DNA of 64,000 nt from Acidobacteriota bacterium (GTDB lineage: Bacteria > Acidobacteriota > Thermoanaerobaculia > Multivoradales > J023). Both the position numbers and the translations under genes were made by a program. Under the pieces are notes generated by a model. That model was not told the origin of the DNA. It did not search any database and worked only from the letters and a program-made list of their open reading frames with translations. The number at the start of each line of letters is the position of its first letter. Position 1 is the stretch's first letter. Location: the NCBI GenBank assembly GCA_029263395.1, contig JAJCXO010000257.1:1-64000 (forward strand), in the 5' to 3' direction. Shown here piece after piece: positions 4,790-57,512 of this stretch.

Positions 4790-5863
4790 TCAGCTCTCGA
4801 AACGTACACTGAGGTTGCGGTAGACCGGCACCGCCGCACCATGACGGGTTGCCGGTGCAAATCGCCAACGCCGCATCGCCTCGACAGCCGCATCGGTCAT
4901 GCCATAGGGCAACCCACGCAAGACATTGATGTCCGAAACCTTCCCTTCCTCGTCGATGATCGCCCGCACCAGCACGTCGCCGGTAATGCCTTGGGCCCAG
5001 GCAGCATCTGGATACTTGGGCAGCGGAGCGACCAATCGACGGGGCGGTTTGACAGCCCCCCCAACCTCGTACGGTCCTTGTTCGATGGCCGGTGAGGCAC
5101 TTGCCTCCGACAGGGCGGAGGCAGGAGAAGGAGGCTTCACGGATCGAGCTGCCGGCGGCCCAGCCAGCCTTTGACCGGACCTAGCGCTCGAACTCCGAAT
5201 CGACTCAGACCCAAGCGACGTGGCGGTCAGCGGAACAGACATCTCGGTTGTCGCCATCGCCGCCAAGTCTTGAACGCCAACCAGCTCAACACCAACCAGC
5301 TCAACGCCAACCAGCTCGTCACCCACTGGCACCGCAGCCTCAGCCAACACTTCCTGATTCGCAATGGCATCGGTGGGTCGACCGCCGGTAGCCACCGGGG
5401 GTCTCGAGACACTGTCGGCAACCCTGGTCTGGGCATCCGCCACTTCTGGAACAACTACCAACTTTGGAACAGCTACCGACTCTGGGACAACTATCGCCTC
5501 TGGGACAACTTCCGCCACTGGGACGACCACCGGCTCTTGGACGACCGCCGCTTCTGGGACGACCACCGGCTCTGGGGCGACCACCAGCTCTGGGACGGGC
5601 ACCGTCTCTGGGATGCCCACCGCCGCACGCCCCACCACCTCCGGCTCCGGCGTCGAGGTCCACCCCCGAATGATGTCCGGGCGCGAAGCGATCACCAGGC
5701 AGCCGACCCCGGCCAACCCGACGAACATCAGTAGCCATGGGGTCAACGATCGGCGCCGAGGTTCTGGCTCGGCTGGCCGGCCGGCCTCGGGAGCAAGATC
5801 TGGATACTTGGCCTTGAGCAGATCGAAGTAGCTACCGTGAAGTGACGCGCTGGAAGATTTCAT
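4790..5863 (-). CDS. TonB-family energy transducer with repeat-rich periplasmic linker
   Basis: The 357-residue protein has a short cytoplasmic N-terminus, one membrane segment (about residues 41-60, TPWLLMFVGLAGVGCLVIAS), a long Val/Pro/Glu linker and a C-terminal TonB domain (about residues 275-357). The last contains KYPDAAWAQGITGDVLVRA, GKVSDINVLRG and AVEAMRRWRFAPA. Such proteins pass proton-motive energy from ExbBD to outer-membrane receptors. Residues 81-140 are ten six-residue repeats of the form xVVVPE (18-bp units at 5444-5623), and a second short repeat spells ELVGV three times (15-bp units near 5273-5322). Rigid Pro/Glu linkers are typical of TonB, but this one has clearly grown by slippage. 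No exbB, exbD or receptor gene is nearby. It is convergent with the HDAC-like gene. Confidence 0.85.
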   Translation of the reverse strand: MKSSSASLHGSYFDLLKAKYPDLAPEAGRPAEPEPRRRSLTPWLLMFVGLAGVGCLVIASRPDIIRGWTSTPEPEVVGRAAVGIPETVPVPELVVAPEPVVVPEAAVVQEPVVVPVAEVVPEAIVVPESVAVPKLVVVPEVADAQTRVADSVSRPPVATGGRPTDAIANQEVLAEAAVPVGDELVGVELVGVELVGVQDLAAMATTEMSVPLTATSLGSESIRSSSARSGQRLAGPPAARSVKPPSPASALSEASASPAIEQGPYEVGGAVKPPRRLVAPLPKYPDAAWAQGITGDVLVRAIIDEEGKVSDINVLRGLPYGMTDAAVEAMRRWRFAPATRHGAAVPVYRNLSVRFES

Positions 5864-12924: not shown

Positions 12925-12947
12925 CCCTGCCGGAAGGACGGGTCCTA

Positions 12948-13200
12948 TCTAACGGGTTTTTCGCGATGAAATCCGTTACCTGCGACTGTATCTAACGGGT
13001 TTCGCACGATGAAACCCGTTACTTACCAACGCATCTAACGGGTTTTGTAAGAGGAAATCCGTTAGATACAGCTGCGTCTAACGGGTTTTGCACGAGGAAA
13101 TCCATTAGATAGAACTGCGTCTAGCGGGTTTTGCACGAGGAAATCCGTTAGATAGAACTCCATCTAACGGATTTACTGGCCAGAAATCCGTTAGATACAG
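12948..13200. repeat. Tandem array of six 43-bp hairpin units
   Basis: TCTAACGGG-type units begin at 12948, 12991, 13034, 13077, 13120 and 13163, exactly 43 bp apart. Each contains an imperfect inverted repeat, TCTAACGGGTTT ... AAATCCGTTAGA, with a loop of about 9 bases. Unit 2 pairs GGGTTT with AAACCC, unit 6 pairs GGATTT with AAATCC, and others use G-T wobbles, so most changes keep the stem. Unit 4 has one C-A mismatch. The remaining gap to 13312 contains nothing else I can support. Confidence 0.92.
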
Positions 13201-13312
13201 CTCGTCTTCCGCTCTGAGCCTGATGATCTCGAGGCTTCCAAGGGAGCCTTTCTAGTGGACCTGCTCGAGATGACTTGCCCCGTCGTCGGATAGAGCTCGA
13301 CTGTGTCTACAC

Positions 13313-23324: not shown

Positions 23325-23360
23325 ACTGAGAAGGTCGCGTCAAAGCGTCCGGTCCCCTGA

Positions 23361-23490
23361 GTCAGCAGACCAAACCGGGCGGACACAAGGCCCGCCCCTA
23401 CGGCCGTCTGCCCATACAGCCCAGGGTCAGCAGACCAAACCGGGCGGACACAAGGCCCGCCCCTACGTCCGTCTGCCCCTACGCCCCAGG
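23361..23490. repeat. Two 65-bp direct repeats with GGGCGGACACAAGGCCCGCCC palindromes
   Basis: GTCAGCAGACCAAACCGGGCGG begins at 23361 and again at 23426. Each unit contains GGGCGG...CCGCCC, a palindromic core that I associate with dispersed REP-like elements in many environmental genomes. The gap 23325-23654 holds only this element and the promoter of the molybdoenzyme operon. Confidence 0.8.
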
Positions 23491-23654
23491 GGAATCGACC
23501 GTGCTCGGCTGGAATCCCCTCGACCCTCCGAGCCCTCCCACAACCAACGAGCCCTCCCCCACACCCGGTTGACAGCGCCAGCAGCCCCCACCTAGTCTTG
23601 CCGCTGATCAAGACAACACGGGACCGATCACAACCGGCCAACCAGGGAGGCGGG

Positions 23655-55498: not shown

Positions 55499-56707
55499 AT
55501 GACAGCACCGCGTACTACCAGATCTCGAGCTTGGATAGCATCTGCCAGGGCGACATCGTCTGCCCGAGCAACATCCGCCAGCCTACTGGTGGCAGTCACG
55601 TTACTCAGCAGCGGCTGTCGGTCTGCCCAGCTTTCTTCATCAGTAAAGTGCTCGCGGGTCGGTCTCGATCCAGCACCACCCTGGACAGCGTCCGCTGCAT
55701 GGAGTTCTGACGGTGATGAGCTCGTGCTGATTGACCCTGGCCACCGAGGTCTCGCCACTTACGGCCGCGACGGCAAGCGGACTGGAGCAGTAGCTCTCGA
55801 GGCGACGGTTGACCTCGACTACTCCGAACCGATGCGTCTCGAACGCACTGCCGAAGGCTTCACTGTGATCGACAAGACCAGAGTCTTGAGGTTCGACAAC
55901 CACCTGGCCCTCGATCATCGAGAGCATCCCTTTGCAACCCTCGAAGCTCATGACCTCGCCGATGCCTCGTTCAACGACGTCTTGTCCCATCGCGGGCGGC
56001 TTTATGGCTACGCAGATTTTGTTGAAATCGGAGCTGTCACGGCTGATGAACCCAAAGGCGCCAGCACCTGGCGCCGTGGCTTTGTTCGCCTCGACCCCAG
56101 CCGGGGCGAGCTTGACCTATTGCACGAGCTGCCCATTGAGTCGGCCGACGGCGAGTACGCCAACTACTATTTCTACGACCGCCGTCCTTATGTTGCGCAA
56201 CTCGGTCGCAACGTCTACATCTTGCGTTTCACCGAACCATGGAGTGTGCACCGCGTGACACGTCGCCAGCTGCGCACTGTCATGACGGGTCCTATCGAGG
56301 GTGACCAGGCCCACGCGCTCCACACCTGGAACAATCGCCTCTACGTCTTGACCAGTCGAGTGCTGCCCAACCCAGAGCTGGAGACCCTTCAGCCAACTCC
56401 GGCACAACTGGAGCAAGCCGGCTCACGAGCTCGAGTGGAGTTGCAGCAGGCGATCCCCTCGCTGCATCACGGTGGCCGACGTTGGACGCTCCACGAGATC
56501 GATCCCCGGAACGGACAAACGACCCGGCGCCTTCACTTACCGTCCGCCGCTGAGCGTCTCCACCTGATCCCAGGCCCATCTTTTTGGACTGCGATCGAAG
56601 AGACCTCGGGCCCTAACCTCGAAGGATCCGGTAGGCCTACGACCCTCCTCTACCTGCCCGCAACCGAGGTCGTATCCGGAACGTTCGGCTGCGAGCAGAG
56701 TCCGTAG
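55499..56707 (+). CDS. Predicted lipoprotein of unknown function, beta-propeller-like
   Basis: The start at 55499 follows GGAGG. The 402-residue protein has a signal with lipobox LSSGC (C40). The mature part shows repeated strand-rich motifs such as DELVLIDPGHRGLATYGRDGKRTG and GFTVIDKTRVLRFDNHLALD, which suggest a propeller. The family is not recognised. Regulation by the upstream two-component system is possible from position alone. Confidence 0.7.
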   Translation: MTAPRTTRSRAWIASARATSSARATSASLLVAVTLLSSGCRSAQLSSSVKCSRVGLDPAPPWTASAAWSSDGDELVLIDPGHRGLATYGRDGKRTGAVALEATVDLDYSEPMRLERTAEGFTVIDKTRVLRFDNHLALDHREHPFATLEAHDLADASFNDVLSHRGRLYGYADFVEIGAVTADEPKGASTWRRGFVRLDPSRGELDLLHELPIESADGEYANYYFYDRRPYVAQLGRNVYILRFTEPWSVHRVTRRQLRTVMTGPIEGDQAHALHTWNNRLYVLTSRVLPNPELETLQPTPAQLEQAGSRARVELQQAIPSLHHGGRRWTLHEIDPRNGQTTRRLHLPSAAERLHLIPGPSFWTAIEETSGPNLEGSGRPTTLLYLPATEVVSGTFGCEQSP

Positions 56708-56712
56708 GACAA

Positions 56713-57080
56713 CCCGTTTCGGCACTTGACGAATCGACTCGAAGAGCCGCGTCAACCCGTTTCGGCACTTGACGAATCGACTCGAAGAGCCGCGTCAACC
56801 CGTTTCGGCACTTGACGAATCGACTCGACGAGCCGTGTCAGCCCGCTTCGGCACTTGACGAATCGACTCGAAGAGCCGCGTCAACCCGTTTCGGCACTTG
56901 ACGAATCGACTCGACGAGCCGTGTCAACCCGTTTCGGCACTTGACGAATCGACTCGACGAGCCGCGTCAGCCCGTTTCGGCATTTGACGAATCGACAGTG
57001 CGCCTCAGCCAAACCGATTCGGCATCCGCAAACCCCAAACAAGGACTTCGCCAACTAGTTTCGGCATCTGCCGAAGTACT
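56713..57080. repeat. Tandem array of 43-bp hairpin units (seven plus two decayed)
   Basis: CCCGTTTCGG-type units start at 56713, 56756, 56799, 56842, 56885, 56928 and 56971, exactly 43 bp apart; two decayed copies follow near 57013 and 57055 at about 42 bp. Each unit can fold as TTGACG-AAT-CGACTC-GAA/GAC-GAGCCG-CGTCAA. Changes in the outer arm (CGTCAA, TGTCAA, CGTCAG, TGTCAG) all keep pairing through wobbles. It begins 6 bp after the lipoprotein stop and is followed by the PilZ gene end. Confidence 0.92.
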
Positions 57081-57095
57081 GTTGGACAGGGTTCG

Positions 57096-57512
57096 TTAGT
57101 CACCGAGCAGGTAACGCAACAGATTGAGCCGATCACCTTCCGGCCAGGACTCGAACCGCACCGCCCCGGTGCCCTCTTGCTGACGTTTGACCACCGCGGG
57201 AACCCGGTTCAGATGGGTTTCTTTGTCGAGGCCGAAGGTCAGAAAGATCTCGACCTCGGGGCCAAGCTCCGGGGGCAGAGTCAACGCCATGCCGTCACCG
57301 TTGATGTCGATCAACTTCGACGACCAGCAGAAATCTTCCGACACCGACGGCGCCTCGATAGCCACAAAGGTGCCATAAGCATCTCGACGCCGGGAACGAC
57401 GACGCTCAACTGCCTTGGCTTCGAGTGGACTCATCCCCGATCCGTCAGCCGCAAACGGATCGCCTTCTGCGTCCTCAGCTCCATCAACCGAGGGTATGTT
57501 CTTTGAGCGCAT
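57096..57512 (-). CDS. PilZ-domain protein
   Basis: The 138-residue protein has an RRRSRRR stretch (residues about 37-43) and LIDINGDGMALTLP, matching the PilZ RxxxR and D/NxSxxG cyclic-di-GMP motifs with Asn in place of Ser. The barrel continues to VPAVVKRQQEGTGAVRFESW. PilZ proteins bind cyclic di-GMP and act on motility, adhesion or export partners. The N-terminal 35 residues are acidic and disordered. The changed Ser makes ligand binding uncertain. Confidence 0.8.
   Translation of the reverse strand: MRSKNIPSVDGAEDAEGDPFAADGSGMSPLEAKAVERRRSRRRDAYGTFVAIEAPSVSEDFCWSSKLIDINGDGMALTLPPELGPEVEIFLTFGLDKETHLNRVPAVVKRQQEGTGAVRFESWPEGDRLNLLRYLLGD

Follow-up and report, generated by a model that had tools for sequence, protein, structure and literature searches.

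A 43-bp tandem array in an Acidobacteriota genome as a candidate copy of a composite intergenic element, within a class of arrays of 41-43-bp period

The tandem array that starts at position 56710 of the window (the whole 64,000-nt stretch analysed, G000:C257:1-64000, from a 10.68-Mb draft genome of 291 contigs, G000) is best read as one copy of a composite element that is non-coding, intergenic and dispersed, and in which a variable number of 43-bp units is followed by a fixed, diverged tail ending in a hairpin. We put the probability of this reading, which includes a BOX-like build, spread of the element as a whole and a constraint on its length, at roughly 50%. Unit length would be kept either by a structural constraint or by descent from a shared ancestor, and ancestry with a retained period is the main rival.

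Results

The array at 56710 and its neighbours

TRF placed the array (array 2) at 56710-56996, with a period of 43, 6.7 copies and 94% matches, and laying the units out in register carried it to about 57078, which bears out the array of 43-bp period described at about 56713-57080 in an earlier note made from the letters of this DNA. Units 1-6 are a few substitutions apart and are followed by three diverged units that keep the 43-bp register (Table 1). The genes of the neighbourhood encode a histidine kinase, a LytTR regulator, a PilZ protein, a penicillin amidase and a peptidase M3. Both this array and the one at 12947 (array 1) had been said to start right after a stop codon; this holds for array 2 but not for array 1, which begins 22 nt after a weakly predicted ORF, and it is not a general property of the class.

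The window and five other sources gave no Rfam match above the gathering score, and searches against phage, plasmid and IMG/VR viral contig sequences gave no match either, so that Rfam, phage and plasmid origins are not supported. Elsewhere in the window, an imperfect 18-bp repeat (CTCTGGGACGACCACCGC) extends over 180 bp at 5445-5624 with one frame open, and is probably coding.

Table 1. Positions of the two arrays, their parts and the genes flanking array 2 (window coordinates)
Feature	Position	Strand	Sequence or remark	Basis
Array 1, of another family: six units of 43 bp, a 35-bp imperfect palindrome in each	12947..13204	+	ATCTAACGGGTTT...AAATCCGTTAGAT	
Gene upstream of array 2, without Pfam hit	55724..56707	+	stop codon 2 nt before the array	
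Array 2 head: six near-identical 43-bp units	56710..56967	+	consensus CAACCCGTTTCGGCACTTGACGAATCGACTCGA(A/C)GAGCCGCGT	TRF and units in register
Array 2, first diverged tail unit	56968..57010	+	CAGCCCGTTTCGGCATTTGACGAATCGACAGTGCGCCTCAGCC	counterpart at related loci, order kept
Array 2, second tail unit	57011..57053	+	AAACCGATTCGGCATCCGCAAACCCCAAACAAGGACTTCGCCA	counterpart at related loci, order kept
Array 2, terminal module with hairpin, right end of the element	57054..57078	+	TTTCGGCATCTGCCGAA	register layout and sequence
PilZ-domain gene, convergent	57096..57512	-	array 2 fills the gap between two gene ends	

Periods concentrate at 41-43 bp across unrelated families

We searched 1.19 Mb of G000 including the window (11% of the genome), together with thinner samples of its relatives, and counted TRF arrays with a period of at least 27 bp and a score of at least 70. 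Twenty-two of the 31 G000 arrays had a period of 41-43 bp (42 in 14, 43 in seven and 41 in one), or about 18.5 per Mb, which extrapolates from this 1.19 Mb to roughly 200 per genome. Lag autocorrelation of intergenic DNA, calculated without TRF, peaked at 41, 42 and 43 (5, 14 and 7 gaps, respectively), with further peaks at 84, 86, 126 and 129 and a background mostly of 0-2 above lag 20, four gaps at lag 34 being the exception. Among 151 adjacent-unit spacings from ten family sets, 87 were of 42 bp, 57 of 43, four of 41 and three of 44. The agreement in period between the two arrays of the window, pointed out in the earlier note, is therefore far beyond chance, with the correction that the modal unit length is 42, not 43; and the broad spread of periods named there as contrary evidence did not appear in the 1.19 Mb, where the excess is sharp. 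Two arrays with periods of 82 and 83 bp (L048:10377-10961 and L052:5976-6237) may be doubled 41-bp units.

All-against-all comparison of the unit consensuses gave 15 groups, or about 13 families once two further similar pairs were merged, and some families (L061, L148, L152 and L153) grade into one another. The units of arrays 1 and 2 had no detectable similarity, as had been claimed, and their pair does not rank among the best 40, each of which has a z of at least 1.2. Since nearly all units in about 13 unrelated families are 41-43 bp long, it would appear, from these sequence comparisons, that something besides sequence sets the unit length in this class of arrays.

No array with a period of 40-44 bp was found in the samples of G002 (174 kb) and G047 (200 kb), an absence with a Fisher p of 0.0004. 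G001, from the same genus as G000, had four such arrays in 269 kb picked regardless of the array 2 family, and the G006 sample (184 kb) had two, with a different unit that is seen at 34-36 bp too. At L084 (contig C5) of G006, a same-family genome, AAGGTGCCACGTAGTTTCCGAGAC arrays have spacings of 34, 41 and 42 bp, so one unit may take different periods in that genome.

Coincidence, in which the arrays are ordinary minisatellites produced by neutral slippage and the period shared within the window is fortuitous, would suffice for two arrays in a single window and would suit the array 2 unit, which is not significantly palindromic. It is contradicted by the genome-wide excess over so many families, by the empty G002 and G047 samples and by the fixed, dispersed tails described below, and we consider it very improbable. 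A different origin for the shared period would be the descent of all families from one ancestral 42-bp array, whose sequences diverged and whose indels were purged by homogenisation, leaving a period that survives without present constraint. The intergrading of the four families named above, the clustering of periods at 42 in one-base steps and the behaviour of tail units, which drift yet stay in register, all speak for such descent; the merged families, however, show no similarity above that of shuffled units, and dyads recur in unrelated sequences, and we regard common ancestry as rather doubtful.

The array 2 family is dispersed and carries a fixed tail

Array 2 does not stand alone as a second array. 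A search of its own genome found about 12 dispersed copies of its family, with relatives at 67-80% identity, amid the roughly 200 arrays genome-wide. Splitting the loci into units revealed a variable count of near-identical 43-bp units and then diverged tail units whose order is constant, and one locus (L012) is essentially the tail alone. Units are more alike within loci (identity 0.87) than between loci (0.82), which indicates that the heads are homogenised locally.

The family was matched five times in G001 and in none of 57 further relatives at the family and order level, and a pattern scan of genome contigs returned one hit, from an unrelated phylum, which was judged to be chance. Between the two species the letters of the family's stem differ and pairing is kept (TTCGGCACTTGACGAA vs TTGTGCGTTTGCACAA). 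The G001 relative of the window's PilZ gene (44% identity) has a different gene context, which makes the synteny of array 2 uninformative there.

Dispersal and sharing between the two species extend to other families. Every one of ten families tested is multi-copy in G000 and nearly all are common to G001. A joint query of ten sampled arrays had 50 matches in G000, 26 in G001 and zero in G002, G003, G004, G007 and G008. Relatives of array 1 are dispersed on contigs C177 and C282, and the L155 family has a conserved terminal module (GGACGATATGGTCC) at aligned loci. Several G000 contigs (C199, C217, C220, C31, C84 and C284) have their first bases within or beside arrays, and thus the arrays probably break the assembly.

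Arrays lie between genes

With genes called by a simple codon-usage model (84% coding), 29 of the 30 sampled arrays had no gene overlap, the remaining one overlapping by 17%, and the same was true of 37 of the 39 loci fetched by similarity, the other two overlapping by 11%; some loci are in both sets. Convergent gaps are enriched (13/36 for arrays vs 30/193, p = 0.002), tandem and divergent gaps hold arrays too, and the distance from array relatives to genes ranges from 14 bp to more than 600 bp.

In coding DNA, G000 and G001 orthologues often share close to 78-80% identity. The L061 array is present, at 75% identity, in the orthologous convergent gap of G001, and much of the adjoining intergenic DNA is unalignable. 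One orthologous operon is preceded by a 42-bp array of the L155 family in G000 (L155:4705-5054) and by a 43-bp array of the array 2 family in G001 (L100:4598-4934); given some 200 arrays per genome, this pairing of unrelated arrays may be chance, and it could also be the mark of a preferred site.

No cluster stood out when protein families recurring beside arrays were sought, and a protein family conserved with the arrays, which the earlier note had proposed to look for, was not found. Inspection of the element ends showed neither inverted repeats at the termini nor target-site duplications, nor a related insertion sequence; there was no empty site to compare, and no mobilising enzyme was found.

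Dyad symmetry is in excess across the class and not significant in array 2

Folds were compared with controls in which the unit columns were permuted, so that repetition is kept and the dyad destroyed. Over 30 arrays, folding exceeded these controls with a mean z of -1.6 and a Stouffer z of -8.8, the latter being overstated as related arrays are not independent. The hairpin that the earlier note had ascribed to each unit is well founded for array 1, which folds strongly (z -5.3/-5.8), but not for array 2, where z was +0.29 on the plus strand and -1.13 on the minus strand, neither of them significant, and where the best fold has units pairing with one another. Against dinucleotide shuffles, array 2 reached z -1.25 (plus) and -2.96 (minus). 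Dyads are also not significant in about half of the other arrays. A second dyad, half a unit off, is trivial in any tandem array and was not counted.

Wobble pairs had been said to preserve the outer stem, and this proved unspecific: the best stem of the array 2 family has eight G.T and seven A.C mismatches plus 53 others. Compensatory changes inside stems are few. With G.T and A.C about equally frequent overall, the mismatches do not tell which strand folds. Matched arms could also be maintained without selection, by quasipalindrome-templated mutation.

These folds bear on a role of the arrays as structured RNA or terminators, in which they would be transcribed from the adjacent gene and serial hairpins would end transcripts or make them more stable where genes end. 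Enrichment between convergent genes, the class-wide excess of folding and a minus strand of array 2 that folds better than shuffles fit this role, but the stem mismatches have no consistent strand asymmetry, tandem and divergent gaps are used as well, no Rfam family is matched and the plus strand of array 2 does not exceed its controls; we think such a role quite unlikely.

The balance of G.T and A.C is what would be expected without single-strand selection, as in arrays bound by protein in double-stranded form, with palindromic sites that recur on one face at intervals of four helical turns. The very tight spacing (42 = 4 x 10.5 bp) and the presence of dyads agree with this, and so does the geometry of sopC, the F-plasmid centromere, with its twelve 43-bp repeats that hold inverted repeats in most units (PMC6238139). 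The likeness lies in 43-bp tandem repeats with an inverted repeat; sopC, however, is a single plasmid locus bound by SopB, whereas here there are many chromosomal arrays with unrelated units, dispersed in gene gaps in a manner unlike a centromere. One sequence-specific protein cannot fit about 13 unrelated dyad sequences, some arrays are without a significant dyad, 34-bp arrays exist too, and no parAB/sopAB genes are among the neighbours of array 2. Protein binding, suggested by analogy with sopC, would thus be an unlikely explanation.

Comparison with known repeat systems

The boxB unit of BOX elements is about 45 bp long. The preferred reading, a composite element spread whole, has its closest parallel in these elements, which share with the arrays an intergenic, dispersed and composite nature, variable tandem units beside fixed terminal modules (as found in the array 2 family), predicted stem-loops, enrichment in convergent gaps and, sometimes, conserved sites. 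Pneumococcal BOX elements have the structure boxA-(boxB)n-boxC and are enriched between convergent genes (PMC3049150). They differ from the arrays described here, where about 13 unrelated families have one unit length and no fixed left module was found. The comparison concerns build only, and a relation in sequence would not be expected between these organisms.

REP, REPIN and BIME repeats are palindromic, lie between genes and fall into families, at times as regular tandem arrays (PMC3116915). The arrays resemble REPINs as palindromic intergenic families, and RAYT-type Y1 transposases exist in G000, but REPINs are inverted doublets whereas the 42-bp units here are direct and head-to-tail. The repeats that flank the RAYT genes (L124, L129 and L135) are of another kind, CCCAGGGT...ACCCTGGG, and recur in tandem with periods of 64-110 bp; a 42-bp array does occur some 0.8 kb past one RAYT gene (L129:2923), but it is not the REP that flanks this gene. 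G002 has 17 Y1 hits, yet no 42-bp arrays in its sample. The Y1 transposases are tied to another repeat and are uncorrelated with the arrays, which led us to reject a RAYT/REP origin. Repeats of this RAYT-flanking kind also occur at L043:3867-4049 and L047:11260-11480, and a 65-bp repeat at 23354-23491 of the window is similar to the RAYT-flanking one.

A CRISPR was rejected as well, as there is no unique-spacer block and, across 47 units from ten loci, conservation reaches 60% or more in nearly all of the 43 columns, with a minimum of about 40%.

The units of the array 1 family (ATCTAAC...GTTAGAT) fit the integron attC pattern RYYYAAC...GTTRRRY, and integron integrases occur in both species: in G000 one that was matched in two overlapping pieces and is apparently broken (L215, G000:C272:1240-2101), in G001 two that are full-length (L213, G001:C673). 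No attC-like pair or 42-bp array was found beside the integrase genes read. Array 2 units do not fit the pattern, the match in array 1 is partial and no cassettes lie between units; integron attC sites were accordingly set aside.

Discussion

The earlier suggestion of a common mechanism or structural requirement behind the two arrays is reasonable given the 41-43-bp excess across about 13 unrelated families; the hairpins, wobble pairs and stop codons on which it drew argue for it weakly or do not hold generally. In the composite-element reading, each element would spread whole through a putative trans-acting activity, after which unit number would shift, with homogenisation within loci by unequal crossing-over or slippage. 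The unit length would be constrained through shape or spacing and not through sequence, the module being a paired-arm stretch of about 42 bp, or four helical turns. Four helical turns would be a fitting length for recognition of double-stranded DNA, and modules that form hairpins would fit a factor that recognises one strand in its folded state.

We put forward more tentatively a dedicated system of this genus that makes or needs intergenic modules of about 42 bp by their shape and spacing, in which one enzyme or binding factor would act on many unrelated hairpin units and new families would arise at a fixed length. The open-access literature searched for such repeats did not describe a unit of about 42 bp shared over unrelated bacterial families, and this speaks weakly for novelty.

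Sequence is the usual basis for defining families of intergenic repeats. Here, about 13 unrelated families with one unit length, and dyads that are kept as their letters change, suggest recognition or generation by shape or spacing. The target of a search would be a factor that occurs in the array-bearing genus and is missing from its array-free relatives, and the arrays themselves would serve as strain-typing loci.
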